This document shows, piece after piece, positions 1,718 through 24,638 of a DNA stretch of 64,000 nucleotides. The stretch is from assembly GCF_905475395.1 (NCBI RefSeq), contig NC_058341.1, positions 69,013,501 through 69,077,500 of the forward strand, read 5' to 3'. Made by a program: the position numbers and the translations under genes. The DNA is from Chrysoperla carnea. Its lineage: Eukaryota > Arthropoda > Insecta > Neuroptera > Chrysopidae. Each line of letters opens with the position of its first letter. The first letter of the stretch is position 1. The notes below the pieces were generated by a model. The model was not told the DNA's origin and searched no databases. It saw only the letters and a list, made by a program, of their open reading frames with translations.

Positions 1718-4700
1718 AGAGCTGAGTGGCTTTTTTGAGTACATATTGGAGGCTCATTGAAAATATTACAGTTGATAACTTGCGAATGTGTGGATGGTGA
1801 AATCGACAACCTGGCTGGGAGGATAGGGGGCGTCAGTGACCTATGAAATTTTTAAATTTTTAATTTGCAATTTTTCCTATGTAAAAAATGTTCTTGAGGC
1901 ACTTTGAAACCTACACTTTTTTAAAGTCTTATATTCAATCAAACGAAATATCATCGCCTGGCATGATTTGGTGGGGGCTAAAATAGCCTGGCAGGTGATT
2001 TTAATTTGCAATTTTTCCTATGCAAGAAATGTTCTTGAGACACTTTGAAACCTACACCATTTTAAAGTCTAATCTTCAATCATACGAAATATCATCGCCT
2101 GGCATGATTTGGTGGGGGCTAAAATAGCCTGGCAGGTGATTTTAATTTGTAATTTTTCCTATGCAAAAAATGTTCTGGAGGGACTTTGAAACTTACACCG
2201 TTTTAAAGTCTTATATTCAACTAGCTTTTGCCCACGGCTTCGCTCGTGATAATGATTCATTTCAAGGTATTCTTTGCATGATTCATTTAATGAATCATTG
2301 ATTCGTTTTGAGAATCAATTTCAAAGACCAACAGCATGTCTTTCAATCTGCTTTTCCTACCATAGCCCGTCTTCTAAACATCAACTTCACTTACATCATT
2401 TTGAAAAATTCCTTTAAAGAATGAAATAAAAAAGTTACACAATATACCTTTCTCTCATTCGTTTGTGATAATGATTCACTTAGTGAATCATCAATTTATT
2501 TAAACTTATGCCCTTTTATCTCACTTATGCCCTCCATATACACAATGTCCACTTTGAAGGCTCAAATGCTACCCTTTAGCCCGCTTGCCTGCGCTTAGCC
2601 CGCCCCATAAAGATCAACTCTACTTACATCCCGTTTGAAAATAAGGCGGCAATCGGTGATGGACTTCGCTGTGTTCCTATAAAGAATGAAATAAAAGAGT
2701 AATACAGTATACTTCTGTCTTAAACCATGAGCACATAAATCAATTTGTAACTTCCAACATTAAAAAGTGACAACGTTTCATACAAACTTTCACCACCTAT
2801 TTGCCCCTTGAAGAATGATTTTTTTGAAAATAGTATGTAATACAGTAAATTTTGTTTTGAACACTGAGCTCATATATCATTTTTTGTATTTCTAACATCA
2901 AAATTCATAAAGTTTCATGCTGTTATCTTTCTTCTGATACCAAATTCGATCAGTTAACAGATTGGCGTAGGTCTCTTGATAACATATGGGCCGGTGTAAA
3001 TCAATATAGGTTACTACATCGATCTGTGAACCAATCTAATTGATATCAGAAAAAAGATAAATTAATTAGAAAAATAATGATATCGGTTTGCCTGATAAAA
3101 AAATGGAAAATAATTGCTTAAAATTAATTTAATGAAAAATAGTCATGAACACTTTTCGATAGAAAAAATATAAAAGGAGTATTCAAAAATCAATTAAATT
3201 TCGTAAAAAATATGTCTCATCTGGATATCATCAGATGGGTGAAGAACGACCTTATACCGCCACTTCTAAGTGCTGCACATGTGATTTAAGAAATATGTTT
3301 GTATAAAATTTTATGCTTCGATCAGTCAGTCAGGCAGTTCCTACTTTAAATTTTTTGGTTAGTGTATCAAATATTTATTTTAATGAACAAAAAATTGGAT
3401 GCCAATTTTAATACTTAAAATATGAATAAAAACATAGTTTTCATGAGAGGAACGGAAAAACTCTATTAGTCGTTCTGTATTAAGTATTATTTTGTCAAGG
3501 ATATTTGATTTTGTAAGAAACCTATTATACTGTTTTTCCTTTAAAAATAATTCTAATTTCTATCTTCAATCTGATTTTGTTCTTGACTTTTTCTGCTGGT
3601 TAAAATTATACAGCTGTGTAATCATTGTTTGTACAACAAATATTTTGTACAGACTTTCAAATTAAAAAAAAAAGATTCACTACATATCACTTGTGCGAAA
3701 TAATAATTAAAATTCTCTGTAAATATGATAAACCATATGAATTTAAAAAAAATTATAGTAATACTAGCTGGGAACTACCCGCTTTGCTGGGCAACATCCC
3801 CACTTGCACCCCTCCCTCCACATTTCCTTGCGTTGGATAACAGTTTTGTAATGTACACGTCAAACTCTTTTATTTGATACCCCACTTAGGTATATTTGTA
3901 AATATTCGATATTTCCTTCCCACTTTCTCGCTACACCTTTCTACTCTCCGAAGGTTAAAAAAATTTCTAAATGTAATTTAAAACATTCTGACCAAGTTTT
4001 GAACTATTAAAAGCCATAATTGAAAAATATGAATTTTTTATTCATGAACACCCCCGCAACCCCCTTTGTGGGTGGAATTTCGTAAAATCCGTTCTTAGCT
4101 GACCTCTACTTGGCAAAAGGAATATTCCTGCCAAATTTCAAGTCTCTAGGTCTTATAGTTCCAGAGATATCGTGATGAGTGACTATCTATATCTATAGAA
4201 AGTCTCCTATATATTTATAGATGACCAACATGCATACGTTGATCTATATTTGTGTATAAAATTATTAACATGGGTTTTTCATATACATCATCCGATAAGA
4301 GAGAATTTTCCAAAATTCACCCCCTCAGGGGGTAAAACGGAGATGTGAATTTTGGAAAATTCTGTCTTATCGGATGCCTACGTTATACAAAGAACACACT
4401 CTCCAAGTTTCAAATCTCTACGATCGGCGGTTTAGGCTGTGCAATGATCCGTCAGTCATTCAGGACAAAGCATTTTATAGATATAGATTAGACGAATTAT
4501 GATCGCCGGGCACGATTTGGTGGGGGCTAAAATAGCCTGGTAGGCGATTGAAATGCACTATTTGAATCATTTGCCAGGCTATTTTAGCACCCACCAAATC
4601 ATGCCAGGCGATAATGTTTCGTATGATTAAATATAAGACTTTAAAATGGTGTAGGTTTCAAAGAGCCTCAAGAACATTTATTGCATAGGAAAAATTGCAA

Positions 4701-4986
4701 ATTTAAATCATCCGCGTGGCTATTTGAGCCGCCATCAAATCATGCCAGGGGATTATATTTCGTATGATTGAATATTAGACTTTAAAATGGTGTAGGTTTC
4801 AAAGTTCCTTAAGAACATTTTTTACATAGGAAAAATTTCAAATGAAAAATTTCATAGGTCACTAACGCCCCCCATCCTCTCAGCCAGGTTGTCGATTTCA
4901 CCACCCCCCCCCCCACATTCGCAAGTTATGAACTTTAATATTTTCAATTTGCCTCAAATATGAACTCAAAAAAGCCACTCAGCTCT
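1718..4986. mobile_element. Foldback element with 141-bp subrepeats, split by a Helitron block
   Basis: The left arm (1718-2220) and right arm (4488-4986) are inverted copies of about 500 bp. Both begin with AGAGCTGAGTGGCTTTTTTG. The left arm contains about 2.5 direct repeats with a 141-bp period (starting at 1861, 2002 and 2143), each carrying 'cctggcatgatttggtggg'. The third unit stops at 2220 and resumes at 4488, so the 2.27 kb between is a later insertion. With that removed the element is about 1 kb of almost pure hairpin. No transposase is present. Confidence 0.8.
2221..4487 (-). mobile_element. Helitron-like insertion block (nested, probably two elements)
   Basis: On the minus strand the 5' end reads TCTATATCTATAAAATGC (from 4487) and the 3' end is CTAG at 2224-2221, preceded by a GC-rich hairpin (cacggcttcgctcgtg). 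The flanks are A and T with no duplication, as expected for Helitrons. A second Helitron 3' end lies at 3767-3764: CTAG preceded by the hairpin cccagcaaagcggg and a spacer. The block is therefore probably one Helitron of 724 bp (3764-4487) next to or inside another. Both are non-autonomous, with no Rep/helicase coding. Confidence 0.75.
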
Positions 4987-6632: not shown

Positions 6633-7148
6633 CTACACTCCAGTTTCAGTAATGGGAGATGATTGTTCTAAAGGCACTGGTTCTTTTGACTGCCGATCCA
6701 TTAATAATTTCTGTTTAGTCTTCTCTTCATCTTCTTCTTCTTCTTCTTCTTCGCCCTCTTCTTCTTCTCCTACTTTTTTCTTTTGTTGTTTTTTTGGTTG
6801 CTGCTGAATTGGTTGCTGTTGTTGTTTTGGTTGATAACGGTTTGGAGTATAATAATAATGATCAGCAAGAGGTACAGTAGGTTGTCTTGGAGTAGGGTCA
6901 TCTGCACAAAGCCACCAGCAACATGGGTCGTTTTCGCAACAATCACAATCATCATCACAACAGTCACAATCACAGTCACCATCACCACAATCAGCATCAC
7001 CGCAATCAGTATCACCAAAATCAGCACCACCACCAGAATCGTCGCCGCCATCATAACCACCGTAATCTCCATCACCACCACCATAATCTCCACCTCCAGA
7101 ATCATCACCACCACCACCAGAATCGCAACCACCACCGTCGTCACTCAT
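6633..7148 (-). CDS. Cys/Gly/Asp-rich acidic protein, paralogue A (171 aa)
   Basis: Unrecognised protein, the first member of a local four-copy family. I chose the ATG at 7148 because its context (taattgtt..acaaaATGAGTGA) matches that of paralogue C and both proteins start MSD. Residues 1-48 are Gly/Asp/Ser repeats (DSGGG, DYGGG). Residues 49-81 are Asp/Cys-rich with 12 Cys (DCDCDCC, DCDCC, DPCCWW). Residues 106-125 contain QQPIQQQPKK. Residues 127-142 are almost all Glu, and the tail ends SPITETG. There is no signal peptide or membrane segment, so it is probably cytosolic or nuclear. Alternating Asp and Cys suggest metal binding; that is inference only. The GAA-type and CA-rich tracts are unstable repeats likely to vary in length. 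Confidence 0.65.
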   Translation of the reverse strand: MSDDGGGCDSGGGGDDSGGGDYGGGDGDYGGYDGGDDSGGGADFGDTDCGDADCGDGDCDCDCCDDDCDCCENDPCCWWLCADDPTPRQPTVPLADHYYYTPNRYQPKQQQQPIQQQPKKQQKKKVGEEEEGEEEEEEEDEEKTKQKLLMDRQSKEPVPLEQSSPITETGV

Positions 7149-7450
7149 TTTGTAAAACAATTACTTCAACAACTATTTATTTTGTAATTTTTATTTATAA
7201 GAATTATAAATATGCGTATAAATATATTGTTAAAATACTACTAAGTTTGAATGGTCATTGATACTACATTATAAGCGCGTATAGATACAACAATCATAAT
7301 AATTAAAAATAAACTAAATAATTATAGTCTAGAGATTAGAGTATACAACCTTGCATTTTTTTTTTTTGTTGAAATTAATTTTTGAAGGGAGCTGGTGTTC
7401 ACGAGGACAAGACAACATCCTATATCATGATTTAAAATTATTTTCATATT

Positions 7451-8304
7451 AGTCTTGAGTAGTTCGCGAACGACCTAGTTCGTAAGAGCGCTCCTTTTGG
7501 CAAACTACGCGAACTAGTTCGCCAATGTTTCCACTTTTAGTTCGTTAGTTCGTTTTTACCATAGAAGTAATAACATAAAACCGTAATGTGGCTATGCAAA
7601 CGGTTGATCGTTATAGAGAGAAGCCTAAAAAAAGTACGCGTTTAGCTGTCGTCGTCTGTCTTATCATACCTCTAGACACATATATGCACGTATTTATACA
7701 GCAATTCTAAATATTAATTTTCACGCTTTGTCAGGCTACGAGACAAAAAGGGAAGACGGTCCCCTTTTTCGATCTCTTTTTTAGCAGACAATAATTCACT
7801 TATTGTGTTTCCTATGCTTCTAAGCCTCTATGTTATATAACCTCCTTGGTTTTTACAAATATTTCGTTTTGAAAGCGTCTGCGTATGTGGTTGCGCCAAT
7901 TTTGAAAGTTTGAAATATCCGACTTATGATTTTTTGTTTGCTAAAATTGAATATATTTTAACTTTAGCAAAAAGCGCTTTTTGACAAAGATCGAAGATAT
8001 GTGATATGTCTTTACTTGATTGAAATCTATCTATTTCTAAAACTGATTTTGTGTAGATACCAAAAATAAAAAATTTCCAATATTTAATTATATAATTTTA
8101 ATTTTCTTTGATTACAATCGTGATTTTATGAAACATTAATTTAATATAAATGTACATTTGCGCTTTATAAAAAAATTTGGAAAGTCAACTTAGTTTGTTT
8201 TCATTAAAAAAAAAGAACTAGCGGACTAAAAGAATGAATTTGTTCGCAACGAGTGAACGAACTAAACTGAGTGATCCCAAAGGCGAACTAGAAGTCCCAA
8301 GACT
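7451..8304. mobile_element. hAT-like non-autonomous element
   Basis: Ends are inverted: AGTCTTG on the left and CAAGACT on the right. Both subterminal regions carry many copies of GTTCG/CGAAC and ACTAGTTCGC-type motifs, the style of hAT transposase-binding repeats. An 'attttca' string occurs near both ends, but an exact 8-bp target duplication is not certain. The interior has no transposase ORF. Confidence 0.6.
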
Positions 8305-8403
8305 ATTTTCAGTTAGCACACATACATAGATTTGGAATTGAGGTATGTAGCATTACAAACAAATTTGAACACTTTTTCACTACATTTTAACTACTCGCCA
8401 ACA

Positions 8404-8515
8404 AAAAAGGTTTCGACCGCCTGAGCCTGACAGTGCATCATGACTATTGCAGGATCTCTCGCAGTGCGGTGGTGGAAAAAACGATATCTGATCTTTTCTG
8501 TCACTGTCCAGTTTG
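8404..8515 (+). pseudogene. Non-LTR retrotransposon C-terminal fragment
   Basis: The frame reads HHDYCR followed by a Cys/His spacing ending LFCHCP. This matches the HDYCRSC...FHLLCHGPAL stretch in the better preserved fragment at 34938-35141 on the other strand. It is the Cys/His region found after the RNase H domain in Jockey/R1-type elements. Only about 110 bp survive. Confidence 0.55.
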
Positions 8516-9660
8516 CATATAATTGCATTAGTATAATTCTGAAAATTTCATGTATTCATTTAAAAAGTCAAACACTTGTTTTATTGTTTAAAAAATTAAA
8601 TATTATAGCTACTTTACCTCTATATTTAATTGTAATATTAAAGTTTAAAAAAGACATACTTCTGATTTAGTAGTCAACCCAATATGTGCGTACACTACCA
8701 CCGATTTCTTTGATCAAAATATTTAATATGACATAACATAAAATTTCCTTGTACTTACTTTAAATTATTTATATTATGTTTAACTTCTTCTGATAACTCA
8801 CAACTCATTTTTTTTAATGAAAAACCATAAATTTTGGACAAACTCACATTGTAAAATATTTTGCATATTCGCAAAATTCATGGCAAGCTGAATCGATTAA
8901 AAAAGTTTTAGTTTCCTTGGTAACCTACATCGTCGGATTTTGGGGTAGTTTTAAATTGTAGCACTTTTTTTGTATTACCCCTCAACCAGTAAACAAATCA
9001 TAACATACAATAATGAACATAGTTCCAAAAATGGCGGTGAAGATGAAGAAAAAATTACTACATGCATTATTATTATTACTACAGTGATCAAGACCATAAA
9101 AAATAATGATCAATTTATAAAAAAGTTGTCGTAAATGAAAAATTTCGTACTTTGAGACACTTACAAATGTTATTTTCTTTTTATTTGAAAATAAATGCTT
9201 ATGGATAATCATTCTCTGCGTTGCTTGCCTTCTAATAATAAAACTTTATCTTGCATATAATTGTTATTCGGCATCAATATCTGTGGATAAATTAGAGAAT
9301 GAATCAAAGTACATTGTACTTTGTATTATTGTACTACCCTGTTTTAACAAAATTCTTTCTTATATGGTAAAATAATTTCTATGAATTAACACTCAAAAAA
9401 GTACTGATCTTTTACTTCATTTCAGCAAAATCAATTGTAAGTTAGTGGGACTAATCCGTATCACTAACTTCTGAACTATAACAAAAATATTTTAACACAC
9501 GCGTTCGTTGATGACGTTCATAATGTTGGATGGATCAAGGTCATTATTGTTGTCTGATGAGGAAACAGTATATGTGTATATGATTAAAGTATTTCGGTCG
9601 CAGTTTTTACACATTTAAATATTTACAATAGATGAATATTGTATAGTCCAATCATTTTAA
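8516..9660. other. AT-rich sequence without supportable genes
   Basis: Only short low-complexity ORFs are present on both strands; none has a family resemblance or a convincing splice context. Confidence 0.5.
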
Positions 9661-9918
9661 GGGAAATAGAGAATATTCATGTATTTTTTTATATTTTTAA
9701 TTCATTGTTTACACCGTTATAACAAAGTTAAAAATATAAATACTGCTTTAAAATGCTGTATTTAAGTGTAAAAAAAAAAAATTTTTAATACATTATCATT
9801 TTGAGATAATTAAACGAAGTTTTTAGGCGCTCTCTATTGATGACTTATAAGTACGTGATCTGTTAATTGTGACTGTTCAATGTATAATTTACACTTAAAA
9901 AAAATGAATTTACAACAC
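9661..9918 (+). repeat. Family H repeat, copy 1
   Basis: Begins 'ggaaatagagaatattcatg' and continues through a T-rich stretch, 'aggcgctctctattgatgac' and 'aagtacgtgatctgttaatt' to 'gaatttac'. An inverted, recognisably similar copy lies at 51391-51642. It is non-coding. Confidence 0.65.
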
Positions 9919-10229
9919 AGAATTTACACTCGTTATTATGAAGTTTTCTAACAAAAAGTCGTAGAATAGTATAATTTAAGGAAATACCATATAAAATGTA
10001 AGTAATTAATATCATACAGTATGTCAACAAATTTGACAAACCCGTACTATAATGTCACGTCCGTAAAAAAATTTGTATTTCCGTTTTAGAAATTTTTAAA
10101 TGCCTTCACTGAATTTGTACTTTTATTAATTAATTTTAAGTTATTAAAAAGATATTAATTACTAAAATAATGGTTTAGTTGAAATGTCCAGTCATTAAAG
10201 TTACAGAAAAGAAAAATATTTGATTGAAC

Positions 10230-11060
10230 CAAATTTAAATTTCATGAATATTCCCTATTATCTCTCACAAATTTCGAACAGGTATTTTTTTTATAGGATT
10301 TTAGGTGATAGTTTCATGCAACCATACAAAAGCTTCAAATTCAAGGAATGCATATCCCCTCACAAACGGGTGTTTTAAAAAAATTTTACAAGAAAAGAAA
10401 CAGTTCAATCAATTTGCTATAAACAGGGTTTCTTGTATTTTTTTTTCGATCAGTCCGCTTTTACAACGTTTTCGAGAAAATCGTGATTAAAAAGTATAAA
10501 AAAACAAGTTTTTTGTTCAGCACTCAAAAATAAAAAATTTTAAGTAAATTTGACCCCTTAACCTTTTTTTAATTCAATTTCATTTATGGGAACTTCGGTC
10601 GAAACAAAAAATCTTATTTTTTAATATTTTTTAATCACAAACTTCTCTAAAACGATTAAAGATACAAAATCATTTTTTTTACAGTGATTTGATTGAATTT
10701 TTCTCTTGTAAGATTCTGATATACGTGCATCATGTCGAAATATGCCTTTTTCGAATAAAACACCTTTTTTAAGACGAATATTTCCTCCCAATTTAAAGGG
10801 TTTTTATGATTTTATAAAGTAACAGCTATCCCATAACTTGCAATAAATAAAACTTTTTTCCAAATTTGTAAGATTTCAGAAACTTTTTTTTTTGGTAAAT
10901 AACTAGTCTAGTAATACGAAACTTAGCTTCACGCCAAGCACATTTGAAGGAGGATTGACTTCCCACTCGGTTAAGTAATAATAATAAAATAAATTAAGAT
11001 GAAACAAAAAAACGAAAAATGGTTCCACACAAACTTTTATCTACTTACCTTTTGCATTTT
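10230..11060 (+). repeat. Duplicated segment, copy 2 (partner 361-1080)
   Basis: Contains the same ordered blocks as 361-1080. It ends about 0.5 kb before the duplicated small 3' exon at 11593-11726. No gene can be supported in it. Confidence 0.5.
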
Positions 11061-11592
11061 CGTTCCAACTTTTTTTTTTTTATTAGAATTAAAGATTGAA
11101 TTCTGCACCTTACGCCATTAAAATCTAACAACAAAAAAAAAACAACTAAAATAGCAAAACGCGATGCACAGCTACTGTTTTGGTATGTTTTTGAGTAGAG
11201 GAGTGTGAAACTACGTTTTGCAAGCATATAAAAGTTATACAACCGGAGTAAGATTTCTTTGCTAAGTTAAAAAAATAACAAATAAATTGAAAAGAAAATG
11301 CAAAACTTGGTTGCTGGAAAATGCAGTTTCACACTCCCTTAAGGAGTCATAAAACATTTCAAAAAAACACCTTTAAATCGCCTTCCGACCGCCATATCAG
11401 GGCAACCAACTTTCTGGCCTAGAATCGTAAATTAGTATGCAACCAATGTCCATAATGCTAGAGGCCATAGCGTATGTGATCCATAGCCTAACTATGAAAT
11501 GTAACTTTCTGGTCCTGGGTAAGAGACAAATAGAGAAGGACTTTCTGATCTAGAGTATACTATGAAAGGTAATAAGGAAAGAGTTGCTTTTG

Positions 11593-11726
11593 TTAAAAAA
11601 AATATATTTGTAAAAAATTGTTTCGTTCTTTGCGACGAATATTCTTGTCTTTCCAAGCAAAAACGAGTTCTTCATTTCCCAACTTACTGTGGTGTAGTTG
11701 GTAATTAAACTCTTTTTCCATCAGTC
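11593..11726 (-). CDS. Paralogous 3' exon K1, unrecognised protein
   Basis: A minus-strand exon follows the acceptor ttgtttaatttcag (AG at 11728-11727) and runs to TAA at 11595-11593. It encodes (G)LMEKEFNYQL, then SKL, NEELVFA and a Lys/Arg-rich tail. The twin exon K2 at 18762-18916 has the same acceptor sequence, phase and order of motifs, including LM(E/D)KE, YQL, SKL, NEEL and FA. Conservation of frame across two diverged copies argues that it is coding. The protein is a charged, probably helical C-terminus. The upstream exon was not found. It lies about 1 kb downstream of Cys-rich paralogue B. Confidence 0.5.
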
Positions 11727-11986
11727 CTGAAATTAAACAAGTAGACAATCTCAAATAAAATAATCTCACAAAATATATTACAATCAATAAATAAGCTTAT
11801 GATTTTTTTATTATGTACGATTTCCGGGGAATGATAAATTTAAGGAATTAATCGCAGATTAATTCCTTAATGGGGAATCCGGGGAATGAAAAATTTTTTC
11901 GTAAACATTATTGTTTTCTCGTGCTGGGGCAAATTAGAGCAAAACTATGGTGTCCATTTTCTCCAAAAATATAAAAGATGGAGGAG

Positions 11987-12340
11987 TGGAAATTTGTAGG
12001 TAGCTTCACCTTGCGAGCCTTATGAAAAATTTATTAAAATCCAAAAAGTTTTCTTGCAAATACTTCCAAAAATTTTCGACACCTGGTACAAATGGGGCCG
12101 AACAGCAATATAAAGCTGCTTTTTTGGTGTGTTATTTGGACCCCTTAGAGGAGTTTGAAACAACGTTTCGAAAGCAAAAAAAAGTACCAAAAAAGCAGCC
12201 TTGTATCGCTACTAAGACCCATTTGTACCTGGTGTCGGAAGTTTTGAAAATTTTTCGAAGTATTTGCTAGAAAACTTTTTTGAATTTTTTTCAATAATTT
12301 TTCGTAATGCTCGCAAGTTGAAGATACCTACAAATTTTAA
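11987..12340. mobile_element. Foldback (MITE-like) element
   Basis: Inverted arms: 'aaatttgtaggtagcttcac' with 'cttgcgagc' on the left, and 'gctcgcaagttgaagatacc' with 'tacaaatttt' on the right. The 82-aa open frame at 12022-12270 lies across the hairpin and is not taken as a gene. A related end (tgaaaatttgtaggtagctt) occurs near 49174. Confidence 0.65.
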
Positions 12341-12691
12341 TCCCTGCTTCTAGTCTAATATCAGCCATTATTTTGCTTGGGTTATACTTTAAAAGCATAA
12401 AATAATAATAAATTAGAAAAAAAACGTATTACAGTATGTATAAATTTTTTTGGGATGCTAACCATTGACGATATTATAAATGTATGTGGCTGCAAAAGGC
12501 ACTAGTCTTAGGATATCTTAAAACTAAATCGATTAATCTGAATTTATCTTACAAAGCTGTACCATTTGAGAGCAATGACATGTTTAAATATTTAAATATA
12601 GTTAACCAAAAAGATAAAAGCCCTATTATTGTGGATCCTATTTTAAATTAGATCTAATACGATTCAATTACCAGAAAATTGTGAACGCAAT

Positions 12692-12907
12692 TCAAATTTC
12701 AGATATTGGAGATGGTTGACCTTGTTGAACTTGTTGCAATGGCTGTTCCTCTTCTGGATTCTTTTTGGGTTGTTGTTGAATTGGTTGCTGTGCATTCTGT
12801 TGGACATAAATAGGATCAGTAATTGGAATAATAGAATGATTGGGGTGAGTGGTAGCTGCATTATCCCAACAACACAAACAACAGCAAATGTCACCATTGC
12901 CAGCTAT
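12692..12907 (-). pseudogene. Cys-rich acidic protein, paralogue B (truncated)
   Basis: The open stretch starts after a stop at 12910-12908 and ends at TGA (12694-12692). It encodes NGDICCCLCCWDN, a polar linker with HSIIPITDP, AQQPIQQQPKK, a short EEE tract, QPLQQ and a terminal SPISEI. This aligns along its length with residues 80-155 of paralogue C. The Asp/Cys N-terminus is missing and no ATG precedes the ICCC block in frame. It is either a remnant or a last exon whose first exon I could not find. The acceptor-like 'gtaaatag' before it is weak. Confidence 0.6.
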
Positions 12908-12910
12908 TTA

Positions 12911-13842
12911 CATTCTTGATACTGAACCTATTTAAATAAAAAAATAACTTCCGTAATTTAGTGCATTATGTGACAAGAGTTACGAACTCCTATATTACCT
13001 ATTTTATGTACTTTTGATAGGTACTTATCCTGTAAACAAACTAAGTGCACTCCTAGTTTTAACGAGTGGCCCCAAAATGTTCCAATCTATTATTAAATTG
13101 TTGTTCTATTTTAGAATAATCAAAACCTCATACTAATCAGTTTAAAGTTTGTGGCAATATCGAGAATTTTTTCACGAGTCACGTGAAAGTGATTTTTAAA
13201 ATGATTCTAAAAATATTAACAAATATAATAATCTGTATGAACAATGTAATTTACAGGATAAGTGTCTTAAAAGTTTCCACCCTTATATTTCGAAAACGAA
13301 ATGGAAAGTCAAGAATGAATATATCGGCTAATTTTTAGAGGAAATCGAAATACTGTGTTAAGTTTTTTTATACCAGGTGATCTTTATAATCAAATAGGTG
13401 ATTCTTGTTCTCTTTGGCTAAAAAACAACTTTGGTTTGAAATGTTTTTTCCTAGATCTTAATTTTCGATGACAGATTTTACGATTTTTTAAGGCTTAAAA
13501 CTGTAAGTATAGCTAGAAAAAAAAGTAAATGACTTGTTTTTCGAAAAAAAAAAATATGTTTTTATTTTCAGAATTTGTTGGTTAAAAACTTTCTTACTGG
13601 AAACTTTTTTACCTGTTAATACTCAGGTATCAAAAATTGAGATCGAGAAAAATACAAATATTTGTAATAGTTTTTGAGATATTTTCAACAACCCCCACTC
13701 TCTTGTTCGTAACTTTCGAAACTTTATTTTTCGTGGGAAATTTTTCATAAAACTGAATACAATTAAGCATCGAATGACACCTGGTCATAATTTTTTGAGA
13801 AGAAATTCTTAAAAATGGCACATTTTAATGTAAATATCTAAC
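12911..13842. other. AT-rich sequence without supportable genes
   Basis: This is the upstream flank of paralogue B. No Cys-coding N-terminus is visible here in any minus-strand frame. Confidence 0.45.
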
Positions 13843-14792
13843 TTAAGGAGGATCCCTCACCAGTAATAGAAAAAAATAAATTAGTAGAAAATGATCCAAA
13901 TTTTTATGTTGTAGTTAACGAAACATATTATTAAATTAAAAAAAAATTTGGGTATCTTATCGATCAATTAAGAGAGTAATTAATTAATTAAAAATACACT
14001 AAATAACATAGCATGATATGAGGATGGTATGTTATTTAGTGTATTTTTATACCATGTATATATGAAATATACATAGTATATTAAGTTTCGTCCCAAGTTT
14101 GTAACGCTTAAAAATATTGATGCTACGAAAAAAATTTTGGTATAGGTGTTCATAGAATCACCTAATTAATCCATTTCCGGTTGTCTGTCCGTCCGTCCGT
14201 CCATCTGTGGACACGATAACTCAAAAACGAAAAAATATATCGAGCTGAAATTTTTACAGCGTACTCAGGACGTAAAAAGTGAGGTCAAGTTCGTAAATGA
14301 GCATCATAGGTCAATTGGGTCTTGGGTCCGTAGGACCCATCTTGTAAACCGTTAGAGATAGAACAAAAGTTTAAATGTAAAAAATGTTCCTTATAAAAAA
14401 ATAAAAAACTTTTGTTTGAAACATTTTTTTTGTAAACATCACTGTTTACCCACGAGGGCGTTAATTAGGTGCAAATTTTATAGTATGTATTAATATAGGA
14501 ATATCAGTTGTGTGTGTGTCTATTTAAAAGTGAATATCTTTTGTTATTTACGTGACGTCAAAAAACAAACGATTGCGCATCAACACTGTCTGTACATGGT
14601 ATTTCAACAATTAACTCAGTCAATTGTTTGTTTTCACTTGTAAATTAATAAAAACTCTCTTAATTGTTCGATAAGATACCCACATTTTTTTTTTGATTTA
14701 ATAATATGTATCGTTAACTACAACATACTAAAAATTTGGATCATTTTCTACTAATTTATTTTTTTCTATTACTGGTGAGGGATCCTCCTTAA
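13843..14792. mobile_element. TTAA-flanked foldback (piggyBac-like) with nested family A
   Basis: The element 13847-14788 is flanked by TTAA on both sides (13843-13846 and 14789-14792). The terminal inverted repeat begins GGAGGATCCCTCACC, and the arms match for about 145 bp and more. The inner tips form an exact 21-bp palindrome (13990-14010 and 14028-14048) around a 17-base loop. TTAA duplication is the hallmark of piggyBac-type transposition. There is no transposase. A family A copy interrupts the right arm. Confidence 0.85.
14049..14640 (+). mobile_element. Family A repeat, full-length copy with defined ends
   Basis: Runs from ATACCATGTATATATG to GTTTTCACTTG (592 bp). Because it interrupts an otherwise symmetrical foldback arm, its limits can be read to within about one base. 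The flanks are T on both sides and there is no target duplication. The 5' end is a near palindrome (ATACCATGTATA .. TATACATGGTAT type). Near the 3' end is a hairpin, aacaatt...aattgtt, about 12 bases before the terminus. It contains (GTCC)n-like runs and no coding sequence. Confidence 0.8.
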
Positions 14793-15653
14793 CTGAACTA
14801 AAATAGCTAACTTAATGGTTTCTTGTTCTTCATGCATTGTTGTACTTGATTATCACCAACTTCCATTTTCACACTGCACAACAGTTCCTAAGCCTTCACT
14901 TATTATCATTAAAAAAAAATGTCAAAACGCTTTCCATTTTGATTGCAGTTTTCGTACTTTCGAATGACAATATGAGTTTTTTTGGGAATAATTATTTTTA
15001 GGAGATATGCAAGAATTGAATAATACTAGGAATTTCAGTAAAACTTTATAATAACATTTTTTGAATAACAAAATTTCCAAAAGTCACAAAAAATTCCCAT
15101 GTCATCGGGTTTTTTATTATTATTTTATTCCTATGTTATCGTTCAAAGTTGGCTGAAAAAATGATGAATCATATAAGTTATCCTTTTCAATTGGATATTT
15201 CTATATCAAAAAATCTAGAGAGTGTGATAAAAAGCTAGCTAAAATATTTAGACAATATTGTAGTTTATTATAATACCATAAAAATATAAGGTTGTCGATG
15301 ATATAAAACCAAAATTTTAATTTAATTATGAGTTCATCGAAGTTCCATCATTTGATGAACAGAGACGACTATACTTAGAGTATTGATGATTGAAGAGAGA
15401 TATATATATTATCGAATTTATAAGCAGCACTTGCACACAATATATTATATATTTTTGTAGTTGCGTGGTATTGTAAAGCTAAAATTAACACATTATTTGA
15501 CTACAAAGCATGTATTTAGTTTATATGTATGTACCGTGCAGTAACCCAAAACTTGTTTACAATACTGTAGGGAAAAAATCACCTTAATAGATTTTTGACA
15601 AAAACGTTCAAGGGCTGACATTAAGGATGACTGGAAAATAAGCCAGAAGCACT
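14793..15653. other. AT-rich sequence without supportable genes
   Basis: No conserved ORF, RNA gene or clear repeat was recognised. Confidence 0.45.
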
Positions 15654-16134
15654 TCACTACATATTATAAAACAAAGTCGCTTTTTCTGTCCCTATGTCCC
15701 TTTGTACGCTTAAATCTTTGAAACTACGCAACGGATTTTGATGCGGCTTTTTTAAATAGATAGAGTGATTCAAGAGGAAGGTTTTTATGTATAATACATC
15801 CATATTATAGTAGAGTAAGGGGTTGAAATAGGGGTTGAAAGGGATATGCTTCAAAAACTAAAAAAGTTGTGCATCGATTAAGCTCAAATATTGACACGAT
15901 ATACAACCAGCTTCAAAGCTCTATTGTTTTTATCTACTTTTAACCTTTGGAGGGTAGAAAGGTTTAGCGAGAAAGTGGGAAGGAATTATCGAATATTTAC
16001 AAATATACCTAAGTGGGGTATCAAATAAAAGAGCATGACGTGTACATTACAAAACTGTTATCCAACGCAAGGAAATGTGGAGGGAGGGGTGCAAGTGGGG
16101 ATGTTGCCCAGCAAAGCGGGTAGTTCACAGCTAG
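15654..16134 (+). mobile_element. Non-autonomous Helitron (481 bp)
   Basis: The 5' end is TCACTACATATTATAAAAC. The 3' end has the stem-loop cccagcaaagcggg, then tagttcacag and the terminal CTAG, followed by T. The hairpin lying about 10 bases before CTAG is the standard Helitron 3' structure. Its body matches, in reverse, the Helitron at 3764-4487 (shared 'aatgtggagggaggggtgca' and 'tacctaagtggggtatcaaa'). Confidence 0.85.
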
Positions 16135-16331
16135 TTTGTTACAATTTTTAGTAAGATATTTTCGAATGTATAGAGAGGTGAAAATGGTTGTTTGTCCCAC
16201 TATTAGCACTCAAACAAATAGAGGATAATAAAAAAATTAACTCAGTTAATGGTTATCTTCACTTCTTTTTTATTGAATTTATTTGTGTAATAAAGAAACA
16301 CTGAACATTTTTATTTATTTATTCTTTTTAA

Positions 16332-16963
16332 GTATGTATGAACACGGTAGCGGGGGTGCAAATTTAAAAATATATATTTTAAATTTTAATGGTGAATTAC
16401 GTTACCATTTGATAATATAACGACGAAAAGTCGAATATAAAAAAATTTTTTTATATTCGTAATTTTCAAAATATCAAAAATTGAAAATTTTGTTTAGTTA
16501 TTCAGATTTCGATATTTCGAAAACCAAGCTATTTTTTTTCTACATATATACATGAAGTTATAATAAAATTCATCATTAAAGTTGAAAATAAGATAAAAAT
16601 AATTTCAACCTTAAATTTGGCCTGCCTGAATCCCTTATTTGGATGGAGACACTTGGTTTTTTTTTCTTTTCAAGGTCATTGCTTATATGTTTACTTTCTA
16701 TCAAAGATTTTTTAAATTTGTTTTAATTCGTTCCAAGAAAATTTAAAAAAAAATTTCAAAATATGTCGTTTTTTGAGATATTTTTACATGCAAAATATTT
16801 AAAATCGATTTTCAATGATTTTTTTCTTAAAAATTTGCATGGATACCTAAGCTGAAATTTTAATCACATATTCTTTGAGTAAAAATCTAAATATACAAAA
16901 ATTTTGAGCCTTTAAATCAATCAATGTTGTCATGCTCATACATCCTTGAAGAAGTAAAATTTT
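16332..16963 (+). mobile_element. Family B repeat, copy 1
   Basis: Starts atgtatgaacacggtagcgg and ends gtcatgctcatacat, giving short terminal inverted repeats of the form ATGTATGA(A/G)CA. The same sequence recurs at about 39430-40490 (+, interrupted) and about 45720-46224 (-). It is a MITE-like element with no coding. Confidence 0.7.
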
Positions 16964-18061
16964 TTAAATATAATAGTTATAGACGTAAGTACAAAAAATA
17001 TTTACTTAAAATTATGTATAGTATAGTAATTTATAAAGCGTATTTATTTCGTGTATATATACTGCCCAGCCAAAAAAAAGGCGGACATTCTAAAAAATAT
17101 TATTAATGTTTTCGATTTTTCAAACAATTATATCTCGACGAAAAAAGATTGGATCGAAATGAAACATATATGATCCGGTAGCTTGCAATTTCTAGTTTCA
17201 ATAGAATCAATATCTCAAATATAATTCCTTAATATTTTTTGCGCAGAGATGTTATGCTGAGAAAATGTATTGATTCATTTGATATGAATTTTAAGAATAT
17301 ATACGAGGTGCATAAGTATTTATACAAGAAATTGACCGTGTGCAATCGAATGTTTGTTTTTTTATTTCTCTTTAAAATGCATTAAATATGCCTTTATACG
17401 AGCTTCTTAGAACCAGTTATTTGCCGATAAAGAAAATATACACCAAATATTCCAAGGTTCTTTATTATTAGACCATGTATATATGAAATATATCAAAGCA
17501 TACTAAGTTTAGTTCCAAGTTTGTAATGCTTAAAAATATATTTTAAATATAAATTTAATCGAGAAAAATGCTTCATATTTTAAACTGACATTTGATCTTA
17601 TTTTCAGGTTCAATTAAAACATTGCTCTGATTCCTAACTGACAAACATTAGATGAACACTTTAAATAAGAAGTTCTCCTTTATAAATACGCAAACCTTTT
17701 TTTTTTGAAACTTTTTTTGTAAATCGAATAGTTTATAGACAGTAATTGATAGCAAAAATCTAGCTTTTAATTTTTGATAGCAAAAATATAGTGTGCTTTG
17801 TTCATTCTATAGTTCAAAATCTATAGAAAAACGAACCACTTTTAATGGATTTATTGAAAAAAAATTTTCGAAGAGTGCCTAGATTTACGAAACACAATTA
17901 TACGAAATAACAATCTTAATTCTAAAAAACAAGTTTGGGTAAAACTTTTCAGTCCGTTTTTGACTAAACTGTACAGTTTGCAGAAAAATATTTCGAACAA
18001 AAAATGTTCCTTTTTTAATCCCTAACAACTTTCTAATTTAAATATCTATCACCAGTTAAAA
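16964..18061. other. AT-rich sequence with a family A fragment
   Basis: Positions about 17472-17541 hold the first 70 bases of a family A copy (accatgtatatatgaaatat ... 'ccaagtttgtaatgct'). No gene is supported in the rest. Confidence 0.5.
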
Positions 18062-18251
18062 ATGTTGGGTCCACAGGTGCTTATTTTACGCAGACAATAA
18101 AGTTGGCCAGGGTTTTCAGTCTCAATGAATAGCTCATTCTATTTCATATCTATCTATTACCAGTTATGAAATAGAGTGAGCTATTTATTGAGACTGAAAA
18201 CCTGGGCCAAGTTTAATGTCTGCCTAAAATAGGAACCTGTTGACCCAGCAT
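18062..18251. mobile_element. Small foldback MITE (about 190 bp)
   Basis: Arms of about 87 bp (18062-18148 and 18166-18251) begin ATGTTGGGTCCACAGGTGC on the left and end GACCCAGCAT on the right. The arms match closely with a 17-base loop. Confidence 0.75.
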
Positions 18252-18761
18252 TTTTTGTTTGAAAGATTTCAATGGGTATAAAGCTTTTTTTCAATTTTCA
18301 CGCATATGTCAATTTAAAAAAGCCACTCTGTACATCCCTTCTGTATTTATTTCCTTAAGAATTATTTGTAGTGTGATTTTCCCAACATTGAATTGTATAC
18401 TTTTGTTATTGGTTATTTCGTCGAGAGATACCTGTTACGTGCTGCGTAATAGAAATTAAAAAAAAATATTAAAAATATGACTGTATATATTAATATTATT
18501 AGTATTAACTTATTAAAATCAAATAGAAAAGCATTTTTCATATATTCCTGAAAGAAATTACCACTAATAATATTTGGAAGTTAAAATAACATACGGGTAA
18601 ATTATTTCTTTATCCAGCAGATGCATATTTAAAACAATCACAGCCATTAAATAGAAGCAATTTACACCGTTTTCTTTCGTTACTAAAGAAAGTTGAGCAA
18701 AGCTGTAATTTTTCTCCCAAACAATAGCACTATTAATGTAATAAAAAAGTAAGTTTATTAG

Positions 18762-18916
18762 TTAAAAAAAATTTTTTTTTGTCAATATATGTTTCATTTT
18801 TTTGAGAAGAGAGTCCTTATTTTCCTGAGCAAATAATAGTTCTTCATTTTCACTGTCTTGCATCAGTTTTGAAAATTGTAATTGGTATTTGAGCTGTGAC
18901 TCCTTATCCATGAGTC
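18762..18916 (-). CDS. Paralogous 3' exon K2, unrecognised protein
   Basis: Same architecture as K1: acceptor ttgtttaatttcag, phase 1 entry, then (G)LMDKESQLKYQLQFSKL, ENEELLFAQENKD and a Lys-rich end, with TAA at 18764-18762. The adjacent intron also matches K1 (attaatctcacaaaatgtat compared with 'ataatctcacaaaatatatt'). The product end is strongly charged and probably an amphipathic helix. It sits about 1.1 kb downstream of Cys-rich paralogue C, the same relation K1 has to paralogue B. I do not recognise the family. Confidence 0.55.
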
Positions 18917-19094
18917 CTGAAATTAAACAATTTATTAATCTCACAAAATGTATTGCAATGAATAAAATAAAATTTCGATTTGGCTATTTTAGCGAAAGAA
19001 AATGGGGCTATTGCTTTTATACTGATAGAAGAATTTTGGAAAATTTTTTTCAAATGTTCATCGATTCTACCTACTAGATGTCAAAAATGACCAT

Positions 19095-19412
19095 AACTGA
19101 TTAAAAAATACAAAAATATTTTTTAATTTGGAAAAATTCAAAATTTTGTACTCTACAGATCCCCTCCCTCCTTGTTTATCGGTTGATTTTTCTCATTTAC
19201 GAACTTGACCTTTCAAATACCAAAACCCTTCTTGATACCAAATTTTAATCTAATCGGACTTAAATTTAATAGAAGAGTTTTGGTATTTGAGAGATCAAGT
19301 TCGTTAATGAGAAAAATCAAGCGATAAACAAGCGGGGGGGGGGGGGGGGTTGTAAAGTACAAAATTTTGAATTTTTCCAAATTAAAAAATATTTTTGTAT
19401 TTTTTAATCAGT
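19095..19412. mobile_element. Foldback element with a G16 run
   Basis: Two arms of about 145 bp, from 'aactgattaaaaaatacaaa' to 'tttgtattttttaatcagtt'. The right arm carries an uninterrupted G run (19334-19349), where the left arm has only 'cccctccctcc'. It is non-coding. Confidence 0.75.
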
Positions 19413-19689
19413 TTTAAGCAAAAAAGTACTCTCAAAGATTGATCTTCTAGACGCTTAGTTTTCGAAAAAAAATTCTTGAAAAATTAAAAATGTAATATTA
19501 GATTTTAAGAAAGAAAAATGTGTTATTTTTTCAATCTCTGAGGGTATTCACTTAGCTAACGCAGCTCCTGCGCTACGAATTTTTTTTATGGGAACTCAGT
19601 TCTTTATTCACGTTCGGCGAGAGCTGGATACAAAAAGTGTCCTACTGATACTTTTAAGAAAATTACTTGAAATATTAATATTCTTTCAT

Positions 19690-19752
19690 GAGGCCATGGT
19701 CTTGTGATTACGATGCTTGCTTATCATGCGGAAGTTCGCGAGGTCAAAGTCC
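19690..19752 (+). repeat. Possible tRNA-like SINE relic
   Basis: 'ggccatggtcttgtgattac' ... 'cttatcatgcggaagttcgc' ... 'gaggtcaaagtcc' resembles the A-box to B-box spacing of a tRNA-derived SINE head. It cannot fold as a clean tRNA by eye and has no tail that I can define. Confidence 0.3.
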
Positions 19753-20015
19753 ATCTATATGAATAAATTTTTTTACATTCTACTTTGTTAACGATGTTAC
19801 CATGAACAAGTATTATTCTGATGTTTGGTAATTTGCCTATAAGGTTAACGTATTCCTAACTGATCTGTTTAATCAATTAACTGTTGTATTAATATAGTAA
19901 TTAACAAACCCACTGCCAAACAACCCAACCCTATTAATTAAGAAGAAATACCTATACGGCTCTATTCCTAGACAAGAAGCAATCAAATTAAATTACCAAC
20001 AAAATTGTTGACGAC

Positions 20016-20483
20016 TCAAGTTTCCGATAGTTGGGGCGATTTTTCTACGGTGTCTTGTTGCAAAGGCTGTTGTTCTTCCTCTTCTTCGTCCTCTTCTCCC
20101 TTTTTTTGTTTTTTGGGCTGTTGTTGAATTGGCTGAGGTTTCTGTTGTTGTTGGGTAGAAGTACCATCAATTATTGGAATAAAAGATTGGTTGTGCTGCT
20201 GAGTGGAACTTGTATCTAAGCAACATAAACAACAACAAATGTCATTATTTGAATCACCAATCGAACATAATAATGTTTGATAAATGCACTTGAAACAGAT
20301 AAAATTCCAAAAATCATAGCAGCATTGACCACAATCGTCTACACAACAATTACAACAATCATTGCCACAACAATCGTCGGTGCAACAACAACAATCACCC
20401 CCATCATTATTTCCAGTACAATCACAATCGCAATCGCCACAATCACAATCACAATCGCCACAATCACAATCACAATCACTCAT
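20016..20483 (-). CDS. Cys-rich acidic protein, paralogue C (155 aa, 30 Cys)
   Basis: The best preserved member of the local family. The ATG at 20483 sits in gttaataaaATGAGTGATTG, a context shared with paralogue A. Residues 1-22 are almost pure Asp/Cys (DCDCDCGDCDCDCG). Residues 29-55 hold CC pairs (CCCC, DDCCG, DCCNCC, CGQCC). Residues 63-68 read CFKCIY and residues 81-88 read DICCCLCC. A polar linker follows, with FIPIIDGTSTQQQQ, then QPIQQQPKKQKK, a Glu/Asp run (129-137) and a tail ending QLSET. There is no signal peptide, so the Cys are probably reduced and able to bind metal or to be S-acylated. Both roles are inferences; I recognise no family. Confidence 0.7.
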   Translation of the reverse strand: MSDCDCDCGDCDCDCGDCDCDCTGNNDGGDCCCCTDDCCGNDCCNCCVDDCGQCCYDFWNFICFKCIYQTLLCSIGDSNNDICCCLCCLDTSSTQQHNQSFIPIIDGTSTQQQQKPQPIQQQPKKQKKGEEDEEEEEQQPLQQDTVEKSPQLSET

Positions 20484-21218
20484 TTTATTAACAACAATTA
20501 TTTATTTTCAATAATAACACTTAAAATAATAATTTAAATGTTTATAAAGATAAGAATAATTTATTTTTAAAACGTAGAACGTAGTGTATTAAACTCAATA
20601 TCAACAGTAAAAATGTTTGGTTAATATTATTGAACAAAAACACATGTGTTTGTATGCGCTGTAGTCATACGGAGCAAGTAAGGTCAACACATATTATTTA
20701 ATACCACAAAACAAGCATAATTCTAGGTAATGGGTGGACGTCGCATACGTATGATATCATCTTTTTTGAAGTACACGCCTGTTTAAACAAAATGAAACAC
20801 GATTATGTAATGTACTAGACGGAAATCGGTAAAAATAGGTTTAGAAAAATAAATACGGAAAAAGTTCACCGAAAATATAAATAAGACTCAGAAAAAATAG
20901 ATCCGAAAGAAAAAATTTACGACTTTATTAATATTTAATACTTATTAATAGTCAGTTACTGTTTTCAGGTGTTTTTTTCCGAATTTAGTTTTTAAGAATT
21001 TTAGGATCTATTTCATTTTTGTTGCCTTCAACATTTCTTATATTATTTTTTTTATAACTCTGTATAGTTGTAATAATGTGAGTTGGATATTTTTTGAAGT
21101 TTTTAGCCCTTGCGTTCAAAAATGGGACACTATTACAGAAAAGGGAGATGTTTAAAAAAAAAATGAAGATATTATAAACATAAACATAATCATATAATAA
21201 ATAATTAAATTTATTATC
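20484..21218. other. 5' flank of paralogue C and left part of a degenerate inverted repeat
   Basis: From about 20815 the motif ggaaaa(a/t)atagatccg appears repeatedly. The same motif occurs inverted at 21905-22075, on the far side of a family A copy, so a decayed foldback may span about 20815-22080. No promoter motif can be named with confidence. Confidence 0.4.
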
Positions 21219-21800
21219 ATACCATGTATATAAAATATATCAAGGTAGAATAAGTTTAGTCCCAAGTTTGTAACGCTTAAAAATATTGATGCTATGAACA
21301 AAATTTTAGTATAGGTGTTCGTTCATACAATCACCTAATTAGTCCATTTCCGGTTGTCTGTCTGTCCGGTTGTCTGATTGCTCAAAAACGAAAAGAGATA
21401 TCAAGCTAAAATTTTTAAAGCGTGCTTAGGGCGTAAAAAGAGGTCAAGTTCGTAAATGAGCAACATAGATCAATTGGGTCTTGGGTCTGTAGGACCCATC
21501 CTGTGAACCGTTAGTGATACAACAAAAGTTTAAATGTACAAATGTTTCTTATAAAAAATGAACTAGTTTTGTGGGAAACATGTTTTTGCAAACATCTCTG
21601 TTTACCCGTGAGGGCACAAATTAGAGATGCAAATTTTATAGTATGTATTATGTGGGAGTATTAGTTATGAATGTGTGGTTATCTAAAAGTGGATATCTTT
21701 CCTTACTTACGTGTCGTCAAAAAACAAGCGATTACTTCATCAACATTATCTATATATGGTATTTCAATAATTTACTCAGTCAATTGTTGGTTTTCACTTC
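21219..21800 (+). mobile_element. Family A repeat
   Basis: Nearly complete plus-strand copy from ataccatgtatataaa to tttactcagtcaattg and 'ttttcacttc'. Confidence 0.8.
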
Positions 21801-22688
21801 TTTTAGAAAATAAATTTAAATCTAGTAACATTTGATAATATCACAGTTAGTATGCTTGGTTCGGCAGTCACTAGATCATACCACACCGTCGTGAGACGAA
21901 CTTATTTTTTCCCCGATCTATTTTTCCGGTCTATTTTGCCGGATCTATTTCATTTATTCGTTTATGAATAAAAATTCGGATCTATTTTTTCCCTGATCTA
22001 TTTGTTCACAGGTCTCCTTTTTCCGGAACGATTCTTTCTTTTCTTTTTTTCCAGTATATTTTTCCCAAATCCTTATAGTCCAAGGTTGTTTTAGCATTCC
22101 ATTTTTGCAATAAAAAATTATAGCATATAAGCTATTGTAATCGTGCGAGGAAAAAAATTTGTTTTGATTTATACATATTAGGAAAGTACTCTCTTTCGTA
22201 GGAAAAATAAGTAATTGAGGAAGTACGGCAAATGAATTAGTCCCGTTTTCATAGAAAAATGCGTATGTAACTCGTGTATATTGTCTCTTTAATACTTGCT
22301 GTAAAATGAAATAATTTCTTCACTCAAAATTTGGAGTTTTAAGTTTGGAAACACGTAAACGAAGTATTGAAAAAAAAAAAAGAAAAAAAAAAACTATTTA
22401 ATAGCTCTACATATAGTTTTTTCATGCCAAAATATTTAAAACAAACAGGGAAAAAATTGACAAAATTTCGATTTTTTGTGTTTTTTTTCTTTTTACCTGT
22501 ATCTCTTTTTTGAGCAAAGATAGGTAAGGGGATTGTAAAAAAATTAGATTAAATTTCCTCTTAAATGGCTAAATGAAAAATTATTTGGTTCAAAATTTAC
22601 CGAGATATAGCCATTTCGACCTGGTTTTTTTTTTTGCTTTTTATACCATGTGCGCAATTATTGCAAATATTATTATTTAACTCAATAA
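21801..22688. other. AT-rich sequence, right part of the degenerate inverted repeat
   Basis: 21905-22075 holds inverted counterparts of the 'atagatccg' motif seen at 20815-20920. The rest is A/T-rich without genes. Confidence 0.4.
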
Positions 22689-23229
22689 AACAAGTGAAAG
22701 AAACAATTTACTGAGTTAATTGTTGAAATACCATGCATAGTCAGTGTTGATTTCTTTATCACATAACACATACAAACATGTGACACATACATAACTGATA
22801 ATCAAGTATAGTACATATTATAAAATTTCCGCCTAATTAGCGCCCTCACGGGTAAACAGTGATGTTTACGAAAAAATGTTTCAAACAAATTGTTTAATTT
22901 TTGATAAGGAACATTTTTTACATTTAAACTTTTGTTCTATCTCTAACGGTTTACAAGATGGGTCCTACGACCCAAGACCCAATTGACCTATGATGCTCAT
23001 TTATGAATTTGACCTCACTTTTTACGTCCTGAGTACGCTGTAAAAATTTCAGCTCGATATCATTTTTCGTTTTTGAGTTATCGTGTTCACAGACGGACGG
23101 ACAACCGGAAATGGACTAATTAGGTGATTTTATGAACACCTATGACAAAATTTTTTTCCTAGCATCATTAGTTTTAAGCGTTACAAACTTGGGACTAAAC
23201 TATGTATATTTCATATATACATGTTATAA
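22689..23229 (-). mobile_element. Family A repeat (inverted pair, left member)
   Basis: Minus-strand copy, from 'caagtgaaa' to atatacatgttata. It pairs head-to-head with the plus copy at 23481, leaving a 250-bp spacer. Confidence 0.8.
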
Positions 23230-23480
23230 AAATGTATTTTCGTTTATTATTTAGGGATATATGGCAACTGCCGGTACTCTCCCTATGTGTGGTTTCCAAC
23301 AATGTATGTTATCATACTGTTCCGGCAACAGATATAAAATAATAAGATATCACGTTGATAACATTATTGAGGAAATATAATAGCACCATTCTTCCAAACA
23401 TGTCGTTATTGTCAATTTCCACCCTCTCATTTAATTCTAATATAGTGCTTTGAACCAAATGATATACCTAATCTTCTTTT

Positions 23481-24007
23481 TATACCATGTATATAATGAA
23501 ATATACATAGTAAGATTAAGTTTCGTCCCAAGTTTGTAACGCTTAAAAATATTGATGCTACGAAAAAAATTTCCATTTCCGGTTGTCCGTCCGTCCGTCC
23601 GTCTGTGAACACCATTACTCAAAAACGAAAAAAGATATCGAGCTGAAATTTTACAGCGTTCTCAGGACGTAAAAAGTGAGGTCGAGTTTGAAAATGAGCA
23701 TCATAGGTCAATTGGGTCTTGGGTCCGTGGGACCCATCTTCTAAACCGTTAGAGATAGAACAAAAGTTTAAATAAAAAAAATGTTCCTTATGAAAAAATA
23801 AACAACTCTTGTTCGAAACATTTTTTCGTAAACATCACTGTTTACCCGTGTGGGGGCCAATTAGGCGGAAATTTTATAGTATGCACTATACTTGAATATC
23901 AGTTATGTATGTGTGACATATATGTATATGTAATGTGATAAAGAAATCAACACTGACTATGCATGGTATTTCAACAATTAACTCAGTCAATTGTTTGTTT
24001 TCACTTG
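23481..24007 (+). mobile_element. Family A repeat (inverted pair, right member)
   Basis: Plus-strand copy starting tataccatgtatataatg after a T-run and ending 'gttttcacttg'. A small internal deletion removes part of the 5' third, so the (GTCC)n stretch follows 'aaaaaaatt' directly. Confidence 0.8.
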
Positions 24008-24434
24008 TTTTTGTTAATATTTTATATTAAGCCTTTCATATATTAAAAAGTCTACCAATTTTGTTTTTATTATTTTGTGACGATTTTGATCGTCAATTTA
24101 TCTTTCATGTCTATGGTTTGTTTATTACGATAAGAAATTTGTTGACACCACAATCGTAATCTGAATTCTAGAACGACAGCACTTAAGGGAAAAATTAGCA
24201 ATGTTTTTAAATCATCATTTTCAAACAAAATAACAAGTCATATAAATGAATCAGTCCTGTTTTACTTTAGTTTGTTGCATTTATGCATACTTTCTTGACT
24301 AATTAACAAATTAAATTGACATTAATTAAACACATTTTTATTTGCTTAATTAATATTAATAGCTTCCACAAGTTAACGCTCTCAAACTTGAATTAAATTG
24401 AATTTACCTTTAACAATATAATAATATTCCTCCA

Positions 24435-24638
24435 TCAAACAGCAGTTTTGGTTGGTTGTTGTATTATTGGAGGCTGTGAGCCTCCAGTATTTGCAGCTGT
24501 AAGAGCACTCTCCACACAACAACAACAAATTTGATTACATTGATAATCACAACATAAACTAACTAATCCTTCATAAATACATTCAATACATATCATATGT
24601 AAACATTCACCAAAACATTCAAAAATACCATCCTCCAT
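24435..24638 (-). CDS. Small Cys-rich protein, paralogue D (67 aa)
   Basis: ATG at 24638, TGA at 24437-24435. It starts MEDGIFECFGECLHMI and has 11 Cys. CIECIY (17-22) and QICCCC (36-41) align with CFKCIY and DICCC of paralogue C with the same intervening length. The tail is short (PPIIQQPTKTAV), keeping only a trace of the QQP(I)QQQP motif and no poly-Glu. The Asp/Cys N-terminal tract is absent. It may be the ancestral-like or a reduced form. It is probably intracellular because there is no signal peptide. The function is unknown. Confidence 0.55.
   Translation of the reverse strand: MEDGIFECFGECLHMICIECIYEGLVSLCCDYQCNQICCCCVESALTAANTGGSQPPIIQQPTKTAV

Follow-up and report, generated by a model that had tools for sequence, protein, structure and literature searches.

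Five related loci within about 27 kb of the genome of the lacewing Chrysoperla carnea, in the order E, A, B, C and D, probably constitute a family of real, undescribed genes for acidic, Cys-rich proteins. Judging from their sequences, A, C, E and probably D are most likely short protein-coding genes that are apparently intronless, and B is most likely a remnant or a partial gene. By the measure of dN/dS the A/E pair is under purifying selection, and as a kind the five loci belong with the tandem, low-complexity, Cys-rich gene families.

Loci and layout of the cluster

The window, that is, the whole 64 kb stretch of DNA that was analysed (C5:69013501–69077500), contains the four minus-strand loci A, B, C and D that a sequence-only reading had described, but the family extends beyond it, with a genome search using A finding a fifth copy, E, outside the window. 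Locus A (7148–6633, minus strand) encodes an acidic protein of 171 residues with E as its closest paralogue, in which an Asp/Gly and then an Asp/Cys tract are followed by CCWWLC, QQPIQQQPKK, an acidic tail and a terminal SSPITETGV. Copy E (window positions −2274 to −1897; C5:69011226–69011603) lies 1.9 kb ahead of the start of the window and encodes 125 residues, ending earlier than A; Asp and Gly make up much of both proteins, each of which contains 13 Cys. Locus B (12907–12692, minus strand) comprises 71 open codons without an ATG and its homology to C is confined to the C-terminal half of the latter. Locus C (20483–20016, minus strand) encodes 155 residues, of which 30 are Cys, as the sequence-only reading had counted, and runs from a (DC)n tract through a CFKCIY...ICCCLCC core and PQPIQQQPKK to an acidic tail. 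Locus D (24638–24435, minus strand) is a Cys-rich open reading frame of 67 residues with 11 Cys, a CIECIY...ICCCC core and QPPIIQQPTK. The net charge (K+R minus D+E) is −34 for A, −25 for C, −21 for E, −7 for D and −5 for B, and the first AATAAA or ATTAAA lies 52 nt past the stop codon in E, 93 nt in D (AATAAA), 143 nt in C, 351 nt in B and 391 nt in A.

Several other repeats accompany the cluster. An interspersed repeat of about 500–600 bases occurs at 14030–14650, 21200–21810, 22690–23200 and 23460–24020, one of the four copies being inverted, with a similarity from about 70% to 94% over the stretches that were compared. One arm of a 192-base inverted pair (93%) lies about 0.4 kb downstream of D, and a 141-base tandem repeat forms two arrays (1858–2220 and 4577–4843) with about 2.4 kb between them, in opposite orientation by eye. 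About 30 kb from E, on the minus strand, a glutaredoxin-like frame with CPKC by eye is present (L008:7611–7955; window about −32389 to −32045).

Homology and shared motifs

Each pair of loci was compared against 1000 residue-preserving and 1000 dipeptide-preserving shuffles. For every one of the six pairs that E, A, B and C form with each other no shuffle scored as well (for A–B, 0 and 1 of 1000), and these four are clearly homologous on this sequence comparison. The C–D score was reached by 0 (residue) and 4 (dipeptide) of 1000 shuffles, which makes D a probable distant member; its membership hangs on C, because the scores of E–D (113 and 127 of 1000), A–D (139 and 245) and B–D (21 and 129) are not clearly beyond chance. 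The four-member family proposed earlier was thus upheld for A, B and C and extended to E, but D joins it only via C and B lacks a start codon.

The shared motifs are in keeping with the proposed modular design, with some corrections. The Asp/Cys tract reported for A and C is present in both and also in E; D is without it. The core described as CIxCIY is found in C and D, but the form in C is CFKCIY, so that the consensus reads C[IF]xCIY; ICC...CC is present in B, C and D, and CWW variants (CCWWLC/CWWCC) are present in A and E. The decapeptide QQPIQQQPKK, attributed to A, B and C with a trace in D, occurs unaltered in A, B and E, but nine of ten residues agree in C and seven of ten in D; the shorter QPIQQQPKK is common to A, B, C and E, and PIxQQPxK to all five copies. 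The acidic tail is seen in A, C and E as well, but in B, where it had also been claimed, it is short. A, B and C further share a final SPI/SPQ..SE. The likeness of A and C around the start codon, noted previously, was borne out by sequence comparison (AAAATAAATA[G/A]TTGTTG...AAAATGAGTGA).

As B has no Met in frame and is similar to C only from C residue 79 onward, it may be either the relic of a gene that lost its 5' part or a 3' exon whose first exon has escaped notice. The B–C likeness runs beyond the stop codon into the start of the 3' UTR of C, and B therefore most likely arose by DNA duplication.

Selection on the reading frames

The length of the frames is by itself weak evidence for genes, since in 60 random 64 kb windows of like composition the longest stop-free run had a median of 125 codons and a maximum of 177; chromosome 5 of the C. 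carnea assembly inChrCarn1.1 is given a GC content of 29.2% in the part of its genome report consulted (PMC10116181). The sequence-only reading had proposed dN/dS between copies as a check, and the values are below 1 for both A/E and C/B. Over 123 codons, A/E gives a dS of 0.42, a dN of 0.15 and a dN/dS of 0.36 (bootstrap 0.19–0.66), climbing along the sequence (first third 0.18, final third 0.71). The corresponding ratio is 0.30 for C/B over 68 codons (bootstrap 0–0.66) and 0.21 for C/D (0–0.65), the latter with saturated dS. Third codon positions hold 57 of the 130 differences in A/E and C/B pooled (p = 0.008; separately 0.043 and 0.057).

The 5' flank of A and E

The 5' flank of A (7149–7384, minus strand) has 97% identity to that of E, with 224 of 231 aligned positions identical, 8 gap columns aside, and a stretch of 109 bases (7281–7173) without a difference. 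In the coding parts of A and E, 22 of 68.3 synonymous sites differ (32%; Fisher p = 1.6e-10 versus the flank, on rounded counts). A/E thus presents a clean case in which some 230 bases of 5' flank stay nearly unchanged while the protein and the synonymous sites drift, and the identity would reflect gene conversion or else a candidate promoter or 5' UTR under strong constraint. Some 235 bases ahead of the start codon the likeness fades, at what is likely to be the edge of the duplicated unit; on the 3' side it is lost past the coding part and comes back at 79% over 97 columns.

A genome search with this 5' stretch matched A, E, one 49-base stretch on C2 (86%) and nothing else. The C2 match was considered as a shared promoter element, and it is taken as chance because the surrounding ATG frames of at least 40 residues are nothing like the family. 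Upstream of C and D the motif ACAGCGC[A/G]TACA is shared, with 1 of 40 shuffles scoring equally high; in the upstream motif comparisons of A with C and of A with D, 13 and 26 of 40 shuffles, respectively, scored as high.

Distribution and database searches

The genome was searched with three of the five sequences, A, C and D. At E-values of up to 10, A matched A and E only and D matched itself only, and at up to 0.001 C matched C and B only; distant members elsewhere could be missed, as each search missed known relatives inside the cluster. In tblastn over 264 kb round the cluster, all matches with an E-value below 0.01 were cluster members or a simple repeat at 63.9–64.1 kb. The codons for DCDCDC are not rare as such, with 28 genomic matches (overlaps counted) against 20 in the reversed control, of which 4 of the 28 fall in the family (three in C and one in A). 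The sequence-only reading had proposed the tandem expansion of a low-complexity gene, and the local multiplication of such a gene, probably a functional one, is sustained by five places in about 27 kb, no copies found elsewhere and the A/E dN/dS ratio. It had named a transposon or contaminant match as what would speak against it, and neither was found. A transposon origin was rejected because A, C and D, used as genome queries, match this cluster only and reveal no dispersed copies, at limited sensitivity, and a contaminant origin was rejected because all of the copies found lie at one place on a 76 Mb contig.

The earlier statement that no named family has this architecture stands as far as Pfam, the PDB and the viral and prokaryote collections were searched. 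A Pfam scan of A–D (E-value up to 10) gave seven weak matches for A and one for C, all below the cut-off, and none for B or D; a PDB search with C and D gave no relative of either. Viral contigs searched with C, D and A, and prokaryote genomes searched with the family alignment, contained no relatives, both collections being poor places for insect genes. Within the window, Rfam gave no matches at the gathering threshold. Among the literature matches listed, there was nothing on such a protein family or on sperm-tail relatives, and the part of a C. carnea venom paper that was consulted (PMC12758981) makes no mention of such proteins. According to the part of the genome report consulted, inChrCarn1.1 has a RefSeq annotation (PMC10116181), which may list the A–E loci already, as uncharacterised.

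Possible function

The products are probably intracellular and disordered, as suggested by their acidity, the absence of a signal peptide by eye, the absence of a long hydrophobic segment and the absence of a confident fold. No signal peptide is evident by eye in the family proteins, in line with what had been said of C, and in A–E no 19-residue window has a Kyte–Doolittle mean above 1.62. The mean AlphaFold pLDDT is 46.8 for C (five sequences) and 57.6 for D (D alone), with no confident fold.

The likeliest role, by analogy, is the binding of soft metal ions by Cys together with Asp, although this role, which the sequence-only reading had raised alongside S-acylation, is put forward as a tentative guess. 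Cys thiolates that alternate with other residues or stand in pairs, aided by the carboxylates of adjacent Asp, would bind Zn, Cu or Cd or would act as a thiol buffer, as in metallothioneins and in synthetic phytochelatins of the gene-encoded (Glu-Cys)n type, and the QPIQQQPKK motif and acidic tail may serve solubility or docking. C is dense in suitable motifs (11 CxC, 10 CC and 19 DC or CD), with three CxC in A and two in E. Two results make the guess a weak one: no metal-response core was found upstream, and the conservation of Cys does not clearly exceed that of the other residues. The metal-response core TGCRCNC, which not every metallothionein gene need carry, was found in none of the four 1 kb regions upstream of E, A, C and D (about 0.27 expected by chance per kb). 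Conserved columns comprise 11 of 14 Cys against 78 of 109 others in A/E (p = 0.76), and five of five Cys against 32 of 63 others in C/B (p = 0.058). The missing Asp-Cys tract of D and the large Asp/Gly share of A and E, with their 13 Cys each, likewise speak against metal binding.

In their small size, the Cys content of C with its many CxC and CC pairs and the lack of a signal peptide by eye, the proteins resemble metallothioneins, but they are strongly acidic, contain aromatic residues and a Gln/Glu tail, have no Pfam metallothionein match (A–D scanned) and have no metal-response core upstream. The metallothionein model PF02067 matched nothing in the genome, and nothing in the control genomes either. 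With phytochelatins and synthetic (Glu-Cys)n peptides they share the alternation of an acidic residue with Cys, whereas natural phytochelatins are enzyme-made γ-Glu-Cys (PMC9917255 and PMC12112059, as far as the parts consulted describe them) and the Asp-Cys here would come from an ordinary gene, as part of a longer protein. In an Arabidopsis mutant deficient in phytochelatins, gene-encoded (EC)n products complement the sensitivity to Cd, as stated in the consulted part of PMC12112059; PMC9917255 also cites the work. Should metal binding by the Asp-Cys tract prove true, an insect employed in biological pest control would carry in its own genes a natural counterpart to the (Glu-Cys)n peptides that have been designed to take up heavy metals. 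That the family as a whole is a ribosomally encoded counterpart of phytochelatins, with a lacewing-evolved (Asp-Cys)n metal-binding tract in tandem copies under a nearly invariant promoter, is quite improbable.

Two other roles compete with metal binding. A tissue-specific structural protein, for example of sperm, cross-linked through thiols in the style of Drosophila Mst(3)CGP, is rather unlikely. The Mst(3)CGP genes of Drosophila are tandem sperm-tail genes for short, Cys-rich proteins without a signal peptide, expressed in the testis, with a translational control element in the 5' UTR. The present family is likewise tandem, short, Cys-rich and without a signal peptide, and its apparently intronless, low-complexity copies of varying length with a short conserved 5' region would suit such a role, but it is acidic, the sequences of A–E contain no Cys-Gly-Pro repeats, and in four 400 nt flanks the translational control element is absent at up to one mismatch, its two two-mismatch matches comparing with 0.32 expected per flank. 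It is unlikely, too, that these are peripheral membrane proteins, S-acylated at the C[IF]xCIY...ICC..CC cluster and with their acidic, Gln-rich tail pointing towards the cytosol. DNAJC5/CSP carries an S-acylated Cys string, and as in cysteine-string and CYSTM-type proteins the Cys of C and D are clustered in a hydrophobic stretch: what C and D, and partly B, have in common is a cluster of Cys with hydrophobic character (ICCCLCC, ICCCC), D consists mostly of this core, and the top hydrophobic windows fall in it (1.62 in D and 1.22 in C). Nevertheless, A and E have CCWWLC/CWWCC in its place, without a hydrophobic window (best −0.18 and −0.13), the long DC tract of C is superfluous for anchoring of this kind, Pfam matched neither a J domain nor a CYSTM domain in A–D, and the Asp-Cys tract and acidic tail are extra to such proteins.

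That most of the loci are decaying relics of a once functional family, with C alone (perhaps also A and D) still working, is quite improbable. On this reading B lost its 5' half and E gained an early stop. B has no ATG, and past the TAA at which E stops the codons still resemble the tail of A, as decay would have it, but dN/dS lies below 1 for A/E and for C/B, and the 5' flank of A and E is conserved more than the coding part, not less.

Other features of the window and genome

On the plus strand of the window, a CLIP-domain serine protease is represented by exons at 56720–59603; in the PDB, its last exon is closest to a pro-phenoloxidase activating enzyme-I (2olg). A frame at 34938–35765 (minus strand) has a weak RNase H match (19.2 bits against a Pfam cut-off of 25.8) and adjoins a frame that by eye resembles the end of a non-LTR retrotransposon. 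An intact 532-residue frame for a bacterial-type coxA, Rickettsiales-like by eye and with bacterial-looking neighbours, lies on C1 (138886126–138887466; L029), and is possibly DNA that was transferred, or else sequence of a symbiont included in the assembly; Rickettsia is described as common in lacewings in the part of PMC5557424 consulted. Interstitial TTAGG arrays are widespread, with 458 overlapping matches of a 25-base pattern in the whole genome against two in the reversed control. True flies are not known to have this telomere repeat, and the arrays suit an insect other than a fly. The places listed on C1 span 1.8 to 117.6 Mb, and the longest among those listed is about 170 bases.
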